DNA of 64,000 bases from positions 74,363,719 to 74,427,718 of the forward strand of contig OY720348.1 in NCBI GenBank assembly GCA_963082975.1. Reading direction: 5' to 3'. The notes below the pieces were generated by a model. That model had not been told where the DNA came from. It searched no databases and saw only the letters and a program-made list of their open reading frames with translations. Source of the stretch: Labia minor (taxonomy: Eukaryota > Arthropoda > Insecta > Dermaptera > Spongiphoridae). How positions within the stretch are numbered: the first letter of the stretch is position 1; each line of letters starts with the position of its first letter. Shown piece after piece: positions 7,797 to 15,100 of this stretch. A program made the translations under genes and the position numbers.

Positions 7797-7940
7797 ATTT
7801 TTACTATCTCGCCACAAAAATTTTCGATGTCGAGATTTTGATGTTTTTATACGTTTTGAAGGTTCCTGAATCATTTTTACTAAGGTTGAGAAAAATGTCT
7901 GTGTGTGTATGTGTGTGTGTTTTTTTTTTTTTTTTTTTTT

Positions 7941-8146
7941 GTATAGCGAAGGAAATACATTTACGTATCGTTAGGTTTATAAGGTTTGCCTAGTATGTCG
8001 GACTCAAGATGTTAATACCGACTAAAACCTCCGCTTTCCTCCAACCTCAATCCCTCACGGGAACCGCCGTTAGGCATTACTTCGTGGGGGGAGGACATAG
8101 CTAATGCTCTTCCTTCAGGTAGCTAAGGTGTTATTTTTCCTTTCTC
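7941..8146 (-). other. 3' UTR of the R1-like LINE
   Basis: About 205 bp between the ORF2 stop and the poly(A) tail, richer in G and C than the surrounding spacer. On the element strand it contains GCGGAGGTTTTAGTCGGTA; a GGTTTTAGT-type block near the 3' end is, as I recall, common in R1-clade elements. It ends CTTCGCTATAC before the A-run. In R1/R2 elements the 3' UTR is where the reverse transcriptase binds its RNA, so this is the likely recognition region. Confidence 0.6.
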
Positions 8147-11128
8147 CTAGTTGTTATCATTAGCTCTTTTTCTTTCTATGCAACGCAAGTCTGTAAGAAC
8201 TTGTGTTGCAAATATGCTGATTGCGTTCCAGGCAGCCTCTGATGACAACATTGCTTCCACTATAGACTCTGGATAGATTCCTGTGTTTATAGATTTCTCT
8301 ACATCATCTCGCTGTTGAGAAAAACGTATACACTCAAAGAAAACGTGTTCCGCATTTTCTATAACTCCTGGACAGGACGGACACTCCGGAGAATCGTCAT
8401 GCTTGAAACGGTGAAGATACTCACGAAAACAGCCGTGCCCTGACAACATCTGTGTTAGGTAATAGTTGACCTCGCCGTGACTCCGGTTCAGCCAAACATC
8501 AATCCTTGGTATTAGACGGTGCGTCCATCTACCCTTTTCCGCGGCATCCCACTGTAACTGCCATCGTGAAATACTATGTCGCCGTTCTTCTGCTCTCAGT
8601 TCTTCGGTGCTCATTGTGTTTGACCTCTTCCGATGGTAGAGGGTCCGTCTTTCCTCAGCCAGAACTCTAAGTGGCAGAGTTCCTGAAATGACACACACCG
8701 CTTCCTCTGATATTGTTCGGAAGGCGCTGGCCACTCTTAACGCGCTTAACCGATATACCGGACCAGCTCTTCTCCGCGATTCCTGGATCTCAAGTGCGTC
8801 AGCCCAAATGGATATACCATACGTGAGGACCGATGTAACCACTGATGATAGCAATAACCTCCTCGTGTGCTTTGGGCCTCCGATGTTAGGCATAAGTCGT
8901 GATAGGCTAGCTACTACTGCTGATGCTTTAGCACTCACGTGTTCCACCTGCTGCTTAAACTTGAGCCGAGCATCAAGCATCACTCCCAAATATCGGATAT
9001 AAGGTTGTGATGCGATCTCTTGTAGGCCGACTTTCAGTTTGATGGTCTCTATCACTTTCCTGCTTGTAATAAGTACAGCCTCCGTTTTCTGTTTAGCCAG
9101 TTGAAGGTTCGCTGTATTCATCCACCGGTTAACTTGCTCGAAGGTGGTATCGAACATGTGGTTGATCTCATCAAGGTGTTTGGCGACCACTACCACGGCT
9201 ACATCATCCGCATATGCTACGAGTTTAACACTCCTTGGCAGATTCAGTCTCAACAACCCGTCATACATGATATTCCAGAGAAGTGGACCCAGTACAGAAC
9301 CTTGTGGTACTCCTCCAGTAACATCATACTCCTTTGCACCGTTCATCGTGTCGTATTTCAGGACTCTATTTGTAAAGTAGCTAGCCACTATCCTTCGCAG
9401 GTATCCTGGTACGTTCTTCTCTTCGAGGGCCTGCATGATGCAATCCCAGTTGGCGGAGTTGAAGGCATTTTTGATGTCTAACGTTGCCACCAGACAATAT
9501 TTCTTCGTTCCACCCTTCCATCTGGTACCAGAAATTGCGTCCTTGGCCGTACTGACAACCAGATCGATCGCGTCCAGAGTTGATCGCCCCCTTCGAAAGC
9601 CATACTGATTGTCCGCCAGAAGTGGGTCAACAATTGCTTCGATTCTCTGATGGATAATACGCTCAAATATCTTACCCGCCGTGTCCAGCATGCAAAGTGG
9701 ACGGTAGGATGACGGTTCTTCCGGTGGCTTTTTTTTTCCTTTTGGAAGTAGTACCAGTCGTTGTTGTTTCCATTTCCTTGGAAAAGTCCCCTCCTTAAGG
9801 CAGGTGTTGTAGACGTCAAGGAACAATATTGGCTCTGCCTTTATAGATGTTTTTAAGGCAATATTAGGGATTCCGTCCAATCCCGGCGCTTTATTATTCC
9901 CGACGCGGTTGCATGCCTCCATCAGTTCGTCTTTTGTGATAGGTGGAATGTCATCCAGCTCGTCCCGAGCCAACAGGTAGTTGAAAACGCGTTGTTGTGG
10001 GAACAGCGCAGTCACGATCTTTCCCAACAGTCGAGGACAAGTTGGTGACGGCATTGGCTGGTATTTTAGGTGCGTCATGACTACCCTGTAAGGTCTGCCC
10101 CACAAGTCTCTGTCCACCTCATTGATGAGATCTTTCCAGCAGTTCTTCTTGCTATCCTTGATGGCTTTGTTTAAGCATCGACGAGCTTGTTTGTACTCTG
10201 CGACTAGCTCCGCCGAGTTAGGTCGCCGATAACCACGCTGAGATATTCTTCTTTTCTTGAGACATTCCCTACGGAGGGCGCTGATATGATCGCTCCACCA
10301 ATAAACCGAGGATCCCCAATTCATGCAACGTTTACGGGGCATGCAAACGTCACAAGCCCGGGCCACTCTCTTCATCAGGTCCTTGGTCATTTCTTCTGCG
10401 GATCCAGCTATGATCGGTTCACTATTTAAGGCAGTTACTAATACACATGGGTCAAAAGATTTTACCTTCCACCCGATGGTGTTAACTTTCCTGGTTGTTC
10501 TTCTAGAATTCTGGCCGTTGGGCATCTCCCAGAGAATCGCATTGTGGTCACTGGCTGTATAAATATCCATCACCCTCCATTTGTAGTTACCTCGGGCGAG
10601 GCTGCTGCTGACAAAGGTGAGATCCACAATAGAACTTGCGTCGCCCTTGGTGTAAGTTGGCGTGTTGCCACTGTTGAGCAGAACCACATCCAGTGCAGTA
10701 AAGGCTTCCAGGAGTGCTCTTCCTCGTGCGTTGGTGTGCCTGCTTCCCCAGTCCACTGCCCAGGAGTTGAAGTCTCCGGCTATTGCCACTGGATGGTGTT
10801 GCTTCGCGTCCTCGGACAGCCGATCCAAGAAGTCACTAAATTCAACAATAGAGAGGCCGGGTGGAGCGTAGCAGCTGTAAAAACGAATGCCATTCACCGA
10901 CGCCGCCACAAAGCCGGCGCTGCCATTGCTAACGACACTCCCGAAGGGAATCCTGCCACAGGACCATATGACAGCTTTGGTGGTGCTATCAGTCTCCCAT
11001 GGTTGACCGCTTAGGTGCTTATACGGTTCTGATAAAAGCACAAGGTCAAGCTTTAGCTCTCTTACCGTCTGCATGAGCAAATGATGTGCAGCCTCGCAGT
11101 GGTTGATGTTTATCTGCAGTATTCTCAT
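8147..11128 (-). CDS. ORF2: APE endonuclease / reverse transcriptase of R1-like LINE
   Basis: A 993-residue polyprotein that nicks the target DNA and copies the element RNA onto it (target-primed reverse transcription). The APE-type endonuclease occupies about residues 1-205, with QININ near residue 5, LLSEPYK (Glu34), AGDFN (Asp119, Asn121), SIVDLTFVSS (166-175) and SDH (193-195), so the expected catalytic set is present. The reverse transcriptase spans about 440-720: LVLLPK, SSYRPLCML, YGFRRGRST, the Asp551 motif LDIKNAF, GVPQGSVLGP (606-615), the catalytic YADD (639-642) and YLGVMLD. A C-terminal zinc motif CX2C-X8-H-X4-C lies at residues 916-933, as in R1 proteins. There is no RNase H domain. 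The start ATG overlaps the ORF1 stop (ATGA, 11128-11125). The length is typical for the clade and no inactivating change is seen. Confidence 0.93.
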   Translation of the reverse strand: MRILQININHCEAAHHLLMQTVRELKLDLVLLSEPYKHLSGQPWETDSTTKAVIWSCGRIPFGSVVSNGSAGFVAASVNGIRFYSCYAPPGLSIVEFSDFLDRLSEDAKQHHPVAIAGDFNSWAVDWGSRHTNARGRALLEAFTALDVVLLNSGNTPTYTKGDASSIVDLTFVSSSLARGNYKWRVMDIYTASDHNAILWEMPNGQNSRRTTRKVNTIGWKVKSFDPCVLVTALNSEPIIAGSAEEMTKDLMKRVARACDVCMPRKRCMNWGSSVYWWSDHISALRRECLKKRRISQRGYRRPNSAELVAEYKQARRCLNKAIKDSKKNCWKDLINEVDRDLWGRPYRVVMTHLKYQPMPSPTCPRLLGKIVTALFPQQRVFNYLLARDELDDIPPITKDELMEACNRVGNNKAPGLDGIPNIALKTSIKAEPILFLDVYNTCLKEGTFPRKWKQQRLVLLPKGKKKPPEEPSSYRPLCMLDTAGKIFERIIHQRIEAIVDPLLADNQYGFRRGRSTLDAIDLVVSTAKDAISGTRWKGGTKKYCLVATLDIKNAFNSANWDCIMQALEEKNVPGYLRRIVASYFTNRVLKYDTMNGAKEYDVTGGVPQGSVLGPLLWNIMYDGLLRLNLPRSVKLVAYADDVAVVVVAKHLDEINHMFDTTFEQVNRWMNTANLQLAKQKTEAVLITSRKVIETIKLKVGLQEIASQPYIRYLGVMLDARLKFKQQVEHVSAKASAVVASLSRLMPNIGGPKHTRRLLLSSVVTSVLTYGISIWADALEIQESRRRAGPVYRLSALRVASAFRTISEEAVCVISGTLPLRVLAEERRTLYHRKRSNTMSTEELRAEERRHSISRWQLQWDAAEKGRWTHRLIPRIDVWLNRSHGEVNYYLTQMLSGHGCFREYLHRFKHDDSPECPSCPGVIENAEHVFFECIRFSQQRDDVEKSINTGIYPESIVEAMLSSEAAWNAISIFATQVLTDLRCIERKRANDNN

Positions 11129-12567
11129 TTCCGTCTAATCGTCATCTTCTTGAGTGCTTCTTGGTATACCGGGCATCTACTTGTGCCGGCATAGTGAGCA
11201 ATATTCTCTGTGCTGAGCTGTTCAGCACATAATGCACATTTAGCTGGTTTATCGCAATTGACCAACTTGTGACCCTCCTCTCCACACTTGATGCAGAGTT
11301 TGGATCGGTCTTTTCCGCCTTTACACTGGGCAGCCCGGTGTCCAAAATGCCAGCATTTGAAACATCGGATTGGCTTTATTATAGTTCGAATTCGACAGTT
11401 TACCCAGCCAATCCTGATCTTGCCGTGTTCTCCGATCACTTTCATCGCTGTTGCTGCCGCCAATACCACCGACGCAATTTGTGTTCCTCTAAAGGCTTTT
11501 CGGATTTTTATAGCCTCTACTGTGACACCACAATCGCCTCCGGCTGCTATTTTCAGAGCATCCAGAATATCGTCTCTTGTTGTGATATCGTCGAGGTCAC
11601 GAATTTCCAGGTTTTCTTCTGGTCCCGTATTGATGACTTTTGCATCATCTTGGAGTATGCCCGCGATGGTTTCCTGCAAGGCTTTTCCATTGTCAGCACT
11701 GCCTTTTAACAGCGTAATAAGCATGTCTCCTGCTGCTGTCTTGCGAATTTTGTCGACAGTGGCGCTGACCTGCTCCGGGCGCACGCCTGCCTTGATCCGG
11801 GTGAGTATTTCGCAGTACTTTGCTTTGTCTGTCGGGCGAATGATCAGCACGTCAGGTCTCATTGCTGCTCTTTTTAGGTTCTTATGGTTCCGCTTAAATG
11901 GAGGCGCTGGAGGTTTATCTGGAGGCTGTTTTTTGCGCTCCTTTCTCCTATCCCCTCTCGATTGCACCATCACCCAGCCTGGGCTCTTGTTCTGCTTAAC
12001 GGAGTTTTGAATAGGCTCTTTATCCTCTACATGCTTCTTGGTAGGAAGGCTAGGTCCCGAGTCTTTTAGCTTCTTTGTGGTCTGTTGATTCGAGCTACCA
12101 GGAGAATTAGTTTTCCTTTTTTCTCCCCTTACAGTAAGGGCTTCTTGAGCTGCAGATTCCTTAAAAACCAGACACTTGTTTGTTTTGTCTGGGGATGTTT
12201 GTGTGCTCCTTTTCTCTGTAGTAGGGCGTGACTGAGATCGTGGTATCTTTTCTTCTATATCCTTCAACCGGCCGTACATGCTTCTGATTGAGCGTGCCAT
12301 TTTCTTTATCTCACCATGTACGTTATGCCTAGGCTCAACAAACTCCAACAGTTCGAAAATTTTCTTGCCGAGGTCTCCAAGAACCTCCTTTCTCTCCTCT
12401 TCACTTGTAGCAATAAATGCTACAGGGGCCAAGTTTTCCACCCCTGCAGCACTGCGGTCGCCAGCTAACGACATCCCGGGGCCCGCTTGCTCACCCCTGA
12501 CGGACGCCGGCACTGGGCATCCGAATCCCTGCGCCGTAACCTCTCCTTCCCTTTCGTCGTCTCTCAT
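11125..12567 (-). CDS. ORF1: gag-like zinc-knuckle protein of R1-like LINE
   Basis: A 480-residue nucleic-acid-binding protein thought to package the element RNA. The N-terminal ~230 residues are polar and charged, with many Lys, Ser and Pro and low complexity. Residues ~238-395 form the conserved gag-like central region, starting PDVLIIRPT. Three C-terminal zinc knuckles follow: C402-C405-H410-C415, C425-C428-H433-C438 (both CX2CX4HX4C), and a longer CX2C-X10-H-X6-C at 444-465. This CCHC/CCHC/extended third knuckle set is the usual one in R1-clade ORF1s. The chosen ATG at 12567 gives the longest frame. Its TGA stop shares three bases with the ORF2 start, which suggests coupled translation. 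Intact, with no frameshift seen. Confidence 0.9.
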   Translation of the reverse strand: MRDDEREGEVTAQGFGCPVPASVRGEQAGPGMSLAGDRSAAGVENLAPVAFIATSEEERKEVLGDLGKKIFELLEFVEPRHNVHGEIKKMARSIRSMYGRLKDIEEKIPRSQSRPTTEKRSTQTSPDKTNKCLVFKESAAQEALTVRGEKRKTNSPGSSNQQTTKKLKDSGPSLPTKKHVEDKEPIQNSVKQNKSPGWVMVQSRGDRRKERKKQPPDKPPAPPFKRNHKNLKRAAMRPDVLIIRPTDKAKYCEILTRIKAGVRPEQVSATVDKIRKTAAGDMLITLLKGSADNGKALQETIAGILQDDAKVINTGPEENLEIRDLDDITTRDDILDALKIAAGGDCGVTVEAIKIRKAFRGTQIASVVLAAATAMKVIGEHGKIRIGWVNCRIRTIIKPIRCFKCWHFGHRAAQCKGGKDRSKLCIKCGEEGHKLVNCDKPAKCALCAEQLSTENIAHYAGTSRCPVYQEALKKMTIRRK

Positions 12568-12922
12568 GTTTGGTTTATCTTCGGGGTTCCTTCCCCTAGC
12601 GCATTGGCATCGGTGACTATGCTTTTACGAGGGGTGGAGCTCGAACCACCACCTCAACCCCCATCCTTGGAGGGCCGATGGGTGGGTGTTTGCACTTATT
12701 TGATGGCGGTGCATACTCGCCATGTCTAGAATCCGTCATAGGCATTTGTGGTATTTTCTAGAGCCTAACTTTTACCCGAAAATTAGGCCCGCCACAGCCT
12801 GATGGAGCCTATCGCCTCGGTCCGGCACTGCTTATTCAGTATTCGCAGCTGGCCTACATATCTGCAGGTCGTTCCCCTATCCGCCACCTGGGGACCCGCC
12901 CGGTAGCTGAGGCCCGCCCCGG
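12568..12922 (-). promoter_or_regulatory. 5' UTR of the R1-like LINE (probable internal promoter)
   Basis: About 355 bp of GC-rich sequence starting CCGGGGCGGGCCTCAGC on the element strand, sharply different from the AT-rich and microsatellite flanks. LINEs of this type must carry their promoter downstream of their own start site, so this is where it should lie. No specific promoter element was identified; the role is inferred from position. Confidence 0.45.
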
Positions 12923-13055
12923 GTGTATGTGTGTGTGTGTGTGTATGTGTATGTGTGTGTGTATGTATGTAGACATTATTACTCAAAAACGGATTGAGCT
13001 AGAATCATGAAATTTGGTACATAGGCATTATTCCAAATTCGTAGTTTTCTATCAA
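12923..13055 (-). repeat. Family A interior separated from its 3' end by the LINE
   Basis: It consists of a TGTA/TG microsatellite (12923-12968) followed by the conserved family-A block through GGTTTGAGCTAGAATC-like and CATGAAATTTGGTA sequence to CTATCAA. It continues the family-A segment at 7797-7920 and joins family-B sequence at 13055/13056. It is part of the chimera. Confidence 0.75.
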
Positions 13056-13370
13056 GGGTTATTTTCACACCAAATTTCACATGAGGAGATTTTTTACATA
13101 TCACCACGAATCATGCACTTTGTGGTGGTTTTATTCTCGAGAAAAATCATCTTTATTGGTTCTTTTCTTAATTTAAAATTATATGACGTCATCCAGCCAT
13201 TCATGACGTCACAGCCTGGTCTTACATATATATTATAAATAAAATAAAATTAAAAATATTTATGTTCTATGCCTATCTGTTTTTTATTACATTAATAGAT
13301 ATATTAAAATTATTTGAAATTGTTTCAAACTGTCGGTCGGTTCGGACCTGGCCACAGGTCAACTTATTTT

Positions 13371-15100
13371 ATAAAAAAGAAAATATCCATCAAGAATATA
13401 ATACTATGTGTGTTCAATTAAAAAAGACAAATAACTAATAATAAAACCAAATAGTTTTCAATTAAAAAAATAAATATAAAAACAATAACGAAATCAAATC
13501 ATTGCGCATTTGATTGGGTTGTTAATCTCAAGGAGAGTAAATCAGGAAAAAGGTAATTTAGGTGTTTTTGCCTGTTCTAAAGAACAAAGCTAACTCAAGA
13601 AAAGATTAGATTGTTCTGCCGGTCCCATTGAAAAGGATCCAAGAGGGAAAAGATTTCAAATCGAAATTCTTTATCGGCAAAAGAATTGTTATCATGTATA
13701 AAAAAAAACATTTAATTAAAATTTCTATTGAATATGCGTTTAAAAGAAATTTTAACTTTCTACACTTAAGTCTTTAAAATTGTATTATGTTACTATTTTG
13801 AAAAATATAATATTTAACAACGATAGCCAATGATGTATTGATAAAATAAGAAGTAAGGGAACGCATAAAAAAAGTCCTATTTTCAGCAAACTATTTTTTT
13901 CCATATAACTTTTTATTTTTTCTTATTCATACTATACAAAGTATTAACGATCACAAAAAAAGAAATTCTAACAGCAGATTTAAGTGGGAGTTGTCGGGAC
14001 ATGAAAAAGTACTGGAATGCGTTCCGGTTCTGAAAAAAGGTAAGGGAACGTCGTTCCCCCGCGTTCCCCTCCCAATACACCACGGACGATAGCGTAATAA
14101 AAATAAATGGAACGAATTAAGTGCTAATGGGTGTAAATGGCGTTGAGATACAAAAAAATCAAAAATAAATGAAAATCCTTCGATCTTGAATTCAGGTGGT
14201 AATTAAATTAAACCTGGCCAGCTGAAAATTGAATTTCACCTGTTAATTAACAGCTGAAAATATAAATAAATTTACCTGATGGAAAAACTATATGTGCCAC
14301 TCAGATAATGTAATGTAATTTGTAACATATGAAGTGAATAATGAACTTGATAATCTTAATATTGCAATGCAAAATACATTTTTCTGTAATCAATAAACTT
14401 GAATTTTCTACAAGCTGTGAACTTTGGGCTTCATTTTCTCAGTTTCTTTAAATGTGGAGTAATCGCTTTGCCTTCTGAGTGGCACACATAACGACTTATA
14501 AAATAAAAAAAACTTTTCATTCTATTTATAATTTTATATTAATTGTGAACTTTTCGAAATGAAAACATCAATAAACTCTAAACTAAGGTCTAATCAATTT
14601 ATATTAATACATTCAATAATCCTTTTACAATGTTATCTTATCCTGTCACAGTCGTCACAAAAAAATCTAAAATTTCTCTTAAAAAGAAAATTTCAAGAAA
14701 TGGAACGTTTATTTGGTACTTCGAATGTATAATTGATAGTTGTGGACAGTCTAAATTTATCAGTTATATCAATTTTGGGGCGCATAATTAACACGCGCTG
14801 GCACTACTTCTGGGTGCGATATAATTGTGTATGTGGTGGGGGGGGAGTTAGATGGGGAGAGGAGGAAATATAAAAGTAAGAGGAACTTTTAAATCTTTTT
14901 CCTATATGGATAGAGTAAAATCTCAATAATCTCTTTTTACAAGGGTGGCAGCCAAATTGTATTTTCTAATTTAATCTTTTAAAATGGTGATATTTAAATT
15001 TTATCAATTCATACAGACTCATAAATAAATATTTATTTTAGGTTTATATAAAAAAAATAATATAATATTCCCTTTTAAATAAAAATCTTATGTTTTTTCT
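13371..15100. other. Spacer, no gene seen
   Basis: AT-rich throughout. A G-run tract near 14834-14875 (GGTGGGGGGGGAG followed by GAGGAGG-type purines) could form unusual structure. No ORF, RNA gene or family repeat was recognised. Confidence 0.5.

Follow-up and report, generated by a model that had tools for sequence, protein, structure and literature searches.

The hybrid and its junction

We analysed a stretch of 64,000 nucleotides (the window) from the dermapteran Labia minor, positions 74363719-74427718 of contig C10 (OY720348.1) in an assembly of 604 Mb and 71 contigs, in which parts of two short, abundant families of mobile elements, here called A and B, are joined into one hybrid that also contains a non-long-terminal-repeat (non-LTR) retrotransposon, or long interspersed nuclear element (LINE). 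Read along the minus strand, family B occupies 13370-13056, and family A begins at 13055 and extends through an AC/TG microsatellite to an A end at about 7798. The two halves are not chance resemblances, since each has three or more further matches within the window at expectation (E) values below 1e-30, and the B-to-A switch that the first-pass annotation had placed at 13055/13056 is thus real. Its description of a hybrid coherent in direction, with both outer ends intact and a Helentron-like anatomy, was likewise borne out. The statement that A continues through the microsatellite is correct in that A sequence lies on both sides, and has to be amended in that a retrotransposon sits within it (Table 1).

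Table 1. Features of the hybrid locus (positions in the window; strand assigned with the hairpin end taken as the 3' end).
Feature	Position	Strand	Remarks
Family-B 3' part (putative HINE)	13056..13370	+	remaining ~300 bp of the family absent (~22-25 bp for a short-form parent)
3' subterminal inverted repeat CTGTCGGTCGGT	13330..13341	+	pairs with 5' ACCGACCGACG of complete B copies
3' hairpin GACCTGGCCACAGGTC, terminator-like	13345..13360	+	~10 nt from the B 3' end
A/B switch	13053..13058		minus strand AATAACCC-TTG-ATAG; TT (or TTG) common to both parents
Family-A core and distal AC/TG microsatellite (12923-12970)	12923..13055	+	
Family-A 5' end (putative HINE)	7798..7919	+	TTTTTACTATCTCGCC subterminal repeat, then conserved tail and remainder of the microsatellite
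Young microsatellite-targeting non-LTR retrotransposon	7920..12922	-	~5.0 kb; 21-nt A tail (7920-7940, T on the plus strand); 5' base at 12922 uncertain by a few nt
Open reading frame (ORF) 2, 993 aa	8147..11128	-	apurinic/apyrimidinic (AP)-type endonuclease and reverse transcriptase
ORF1, 480 aa	11125..12567	-	no Pfam match at E 0.001

To characterize the switch, we compared it with a sample of B copies consisting of the first 72 of 100 listed sites (of 10,244 in the assembly), all of which lie within the first 5.6 Mb of contig C1. The wider reading of the switch is AATAACCC-TTG-ATAGAAAAC. At the corresponding position CCCTTC is found in 61 of the 72 B copies and CCCTTGCC in the six closest B relatives checked, which had been chosen for matching a CCCTTG-containing probe, and A copies mostly read CAAAAGTTGATAG, such that TT is common to both families, or TTG in the case of a G-type B parent, a microhomology of 2-3 bp. 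Were both parents full-length, the sequence missing at the switch would amount to a minimum of 690 bp (304 of B and 386 of A), or to about 408 bp if the B parent was a short form. Such a short form, ending about 25 nt past the switch position, was seen in two clear cases (L073, L084) and one probable case (L080) among the 72 copies, and the earlier remark that the switch lies some 30 bp before the end of a simple B copy applies to this rare form; 57 of the 72 reach a full-length right end about 300 bp beyond the switch position, with the other 15 ending early or broken.

A recurrent breakpoint in B was considered and rejected, as the searched pattern itself selects for the break, and 71 of the 72 unselected copies run on into B past the 25-mer used to find them (L078 diverges within a few bases). 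The exact pattern ...CCCTTGA occurs at three sites, namely the window, L010, which has an internal B deletion, and L011, where B stops beside a spacer that has one other match, L022, about 2 kb away, inverted and beginning at the same base. L021/L022 (C10:55932422-55934603) is a local inverted paralogue of 77% identity, with the similarity beginning at the base beside a B end. Three further B elements (L037, L081 and L091) carry a tandem double core with a common middle copy of a repeat of about 90 bp, which suggests that slippage or unequal exchange took place inside these elements.

Against the consensus of the 72 copies, the B half has 13 differences in 321 positions (the compared stretch exceeding the B part by a few bases on each side). 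The two A pieces, each compared over 104 positions, have 6 and 4 differences from consensuses built on 19 and 18 further A-like sequences, respectively. By these counts the halves appear alike in divergence, which is neutral as to origin, and an age gap between them was therefore dropped as a discriminator.

Anatomy and orientation of families A and B

Complete copies measure about 645 bp in B and about 605 bp in A, and both families present inverted repeats just within their two ends and a hairpin at one end. The terminal repeats are TTTTTACCGACCGACG... and ...CGTCGGTCGGT followed by about 30 nt in B, and TTTTTACTATCTCGCC... and ...GCGAGATAGT followed by about 25 nt in A; the palindrome or hairpin close to the 3' end is GACCTGGCCACAGGTC in B and GAGTGGAGACACTC in A. 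The fold at 13325-13375 has a predicted energy of -13.2 kcal/mol, a value obtained with RNA parameters and without a shuffle control. In each family a common core (AAAGTTGA ... TACCAAATTTCAT) precedes the microsatellite. The assembly holds 11,541 exact 33-mer sites for A and 10,244 exact 25-mer sites for B. At the nested loci L041 and L036, comparison with other A copies as empty sites showed that B inserts into A/T runs without target duplication. This insertion into T-rich sequence without a target-site duplication was shown for family B alone, and for five of the loci (L140-L144) the insertion evidence comes from reading the left sides, the right sides being deduced from the joining pattern.

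According to the excerpted text of PMC4067079, the inverted repeats of mite HINEs (non-autonomous Helentrons) lie 2-4 nt inside the 5' terminus and about 38-60 bp inside the 3' terminus, and a palindrome stands close to the 3' terminus. Only if the hairpin end is taken as the 3' end do A and B match this order, and the hybrid is then read on the plus strand, from an A 5' end (7798) to a B 3' end (13370). The first-pass annotation had taken the hairpin part as the 5' head of a B element on the minus strand, and by the HINE convention this polarity has to be reversed. The excerpt describes further traits of HINEs and DINE-1-like elements that A and B share, namely subterminal inverted repeats, a 3' hairpin, an internal microsatellite, insertion into A/T runs without duplication (here for B) and more than 10,000 copies. 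In contrast to the 38-60 bp given there for mites, the 3' repeat of A and B lies about 25-30 nt from the end. Judged by anatomy, both families are probably HINEs, with a 3' repeat distance below the mite range.

A search for candidate autonomous partners with Helitron_like_N gave 104 matches in the genome, some inside long open frames. Within 1.5 kb of the 12 Rep/helicase loci that were cut out, no terminal motif of A or B was found, just short A/T-rich matches. Among the Rep/helicase elements, L099-L104 carry Helitron_like_N in frames of 1,537-1,652 aa, are at least 99.9% identical over 3.5 kb, lie on five contigs and carry, some 1 kb ahead of the Rep domain, a tandem repeat of 69 bp; by their sequence they appear to be recently active rolling-circle elements.

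Origin of the hybrid

The first-pass annotation had held that several copies of the junction would show the hybrid itself to have transposed and that a single copy would favour a local event. When up to 3 mismatches were allowed, a 29-mer spanning the switch matched the assembly once and the reversed control not at all, in a search that is blind to copies with an insertion or deletion inside the 29-mer. A 121-bp probe gave 1,046 candidates, and among the 40 scored there was no second junction copy, these being the locus itself and 39 matches limited to the B side (one of them, L008, reaching eight bases beyond). The same junction at more than one site, as expected of a mobile chimaeric HINE, was thus not found with this 29-mer at up to 3 mismatches, and the suggestion that the hybrid is mobile was not sustained; by the reasoning of that annotation, a local event is favoured.

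We consider it rather probable that a local deletion joined neighbouring B and A copies. A family-B and a family-A HINE would have stood close together in the same direction, and a single deletion with TT(G) microhomology would have taken their facing inner parts along with the intervening sequence. As the outer ends would have remained untouched, the product would resemble a single element that starts as A (5') and finishes as B (3'). The landing of a microsatellite-specific non-LTR retrotransposon in the A microsatellite would be a later and recent event. An A piece lies within about 1 kb of B in 18 of the 72 sampled copies, and in five of the 72 it lies downstream on the same strand (two nested and three non-nested, e.g., L076 with a gap of about 146 bp). 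As A and B copies are often near each other, such a deletion is plausible without any special mechanism. The reading is favoured by the single junction copy, by the density of both families, by the microhomology of 2-3 bp and by the fact that none of the 72 sampled B copies forms an A/B hybrid of the window type.

Two points that weigh against a local deletion should nonetheless be considered. The A breakpoint lies directly beside an AAAA run that B has also hit at two other loci (L138, L139), and a random deletion would meet this insertion site only by luck. Moreover, the search for an empty or ancestral site was negative, with near flanks that are single-copy or nearly so in the assembly: a left-flank probe found no second copy of 13375-13793, its 39 other scored matches all lying within 13794-14000 (mostly 13822-14000), and a right-flank probe returned its own locus and three short, weak matches. 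Positions 13822-14000 of the window are a dispersed repeat of about 175 bp, with 85-92% identity at 39 other scored sites.

The main rival is a chimaeric rolling-circle copy, which we regard as unlikely, if worth serious attention. Here an A element would have carried a B nested at the AAAA run of CTCAAAAGTTG and pointing the same way, and replication starting from the A 5' end would have stopped at the terminator of the nested B, leaving the other half of A behind, before the product inserted in the window. Nesting of this kind appears from the joins to be frequent: the B end is joined on the same strand to one A poly-A run (GAGGAAAAAAAATCAAAACG) at 33 exact-pattern sites, and its right end is joined to GTTGATAGAAAAC, the A site of the switch itself, at two (L138 and L139), which would explain the A breakpoint. 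The intact look of the two outer ends also fits a copied product. Neither the intact ends nor the coherent direction proves movement of a chimaera, because a deletion between neighbours of like orientation looks identical. The two loci at the switch's own site are imperfect precedents, as L138 is an A copy holding a mere B end of about 36 nt, placed exactly at that site, and L139, a full-length B inside A with the left half of A present, lacks about 50 nt of A there. In stretches of 150 bp read at 8 of the 33 poly-A sites, the left half of A directly abuts the left end of B in six, and L145 and L146 showed neither A nor the B end. Altogether, the A half beyond B is kept in 10 of 12 nested loci (L036, L041, L138, L139, L140-L144 and L147), and among the 12 we found no A-5'/B-3' chimaera, L145 and L146 being the two that showed neither A nor the B end in the 150 bp read. 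The junction is single-copy in the assembly, which also speaks against copying, and the route further requires a deletion at the junction, before or after, of about 29 nt (short B) or about 310 nt (full B).

A similar model is drawn for Fusarium Helitrons in the excerpted text of PMC5148889, where composite or chimaeric elements arise as same-direction nests that combine the 5' end of one element with the 3' end of another, as in our hybrid. Those composites, as that excerpt presents them, keep the nested 5' terminus, whereas our hybrid has lost the inner parts of both elements and is found as a single copy.

The mechanism originally proposed, in which a 3' terminator is bypassed and the following one captured, is in our view extremely improbable. 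Bypass was shown experimentally for Helraiser, according to the excerpted text of PMC4778049, and the hybrid does terminate at the B hairpin. However, a bypass product retains the skipped 3' end together with all sequence as far as the next, and here both the 3' half of A and the 5' part of B are gone; the switch falls inside both elements and their inner parts are absent, which does not fit bypass unless a second deletion is assumed. The polarity given with the proposal is also reversed. The common core ahead of the microsatellites raises the thought of in-register homologous recombination or template switching between related A and B cores, which we hold to be very unlikely. The B core starts at 402 and the switch is at 344, and the A core starts at 383 with the switch at 386, so that the switch departs from B about 58 nt short of the core, joins A at the start of the core and is out of register.

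A retrotransposon in the HINE microsatellites

The retrotransposon inside the A microsatellite encodes an ORF2 with the Pfam domains PF14529, PF03372 and PF00078. Against the PDB, LINE-type reverse transcriptases, including LINE-1 ORF2, were the best among 20 matches, and the endonuclease part matched the TRAS1 and R1Bm structures more weakly. A stretch of 232 bp at its 5' end is identical in 17 copies, including that of the window, among 29 matches. An AC/ACAT repeat lies upstream in all 16 other copies, abutting the element or nearly so in 14 and standing about 15-20 nt off in L106 and L108, which have extra bases ahead of the start of the window copy. The 3' junction lay in the fetched stretch in 13 of the 16, and in 12 of these poly(A) is followed by an AC/ACAT repeat, which in L135 is just CACACA; in L133 the HINE tail follows poly(A) almost directly. 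Of the three remaining copies, an A tail is seen in L122 and L124 but not in L123. The identical 5' stretches and the AC/ACAT repeats at both junctions indicate that the LINE is young and microsatellite-specific.

The 5' setting of the 16 other copies (L106-L137) is family A in 11, a related core family in three and long arrays in two, and thus 14 of the 16 sit inside HINEs, a raw count over the copies read. Its domains and target make it a likely R1/TRAS-type microsatellite-targeting element. Microsatellite-targeting non-LTR retrotransposons of the R1 clade were reportedly described by Kojima and Fujiwara in 2004. Elements of this kind go by the name Waldo. Our LINE resembles such elements in its AP-type endonuclease, its reverse transcriptase and its insertion into AC/ACAT repeats, and differs from them in that most of the insertions read sit in HINE-carried microsatellites. 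In the literature searched, at the level of titles and the beginnings of abstracts, no report was found of LINEs landing in Helentron microsatellites.

Together the two families have more than 20,000 exact-match sites, and the hybrid, as one event among these, says little on its own. That the locus is a snapshot of Helentron families swapping their 3' ends, along with a LINE that uses HINE-spread microsatellites as its main landing sites, seems to us doubtful. The set of B-in-A junctions (33 and 2 exact-pattern sites) would permit a direct count of chimaeric rolling-circle products. We regard the LINE in HINE microsatellites as the more interesting finding, as it suggests that one mobile family, the HINEs, spreads the target of another.

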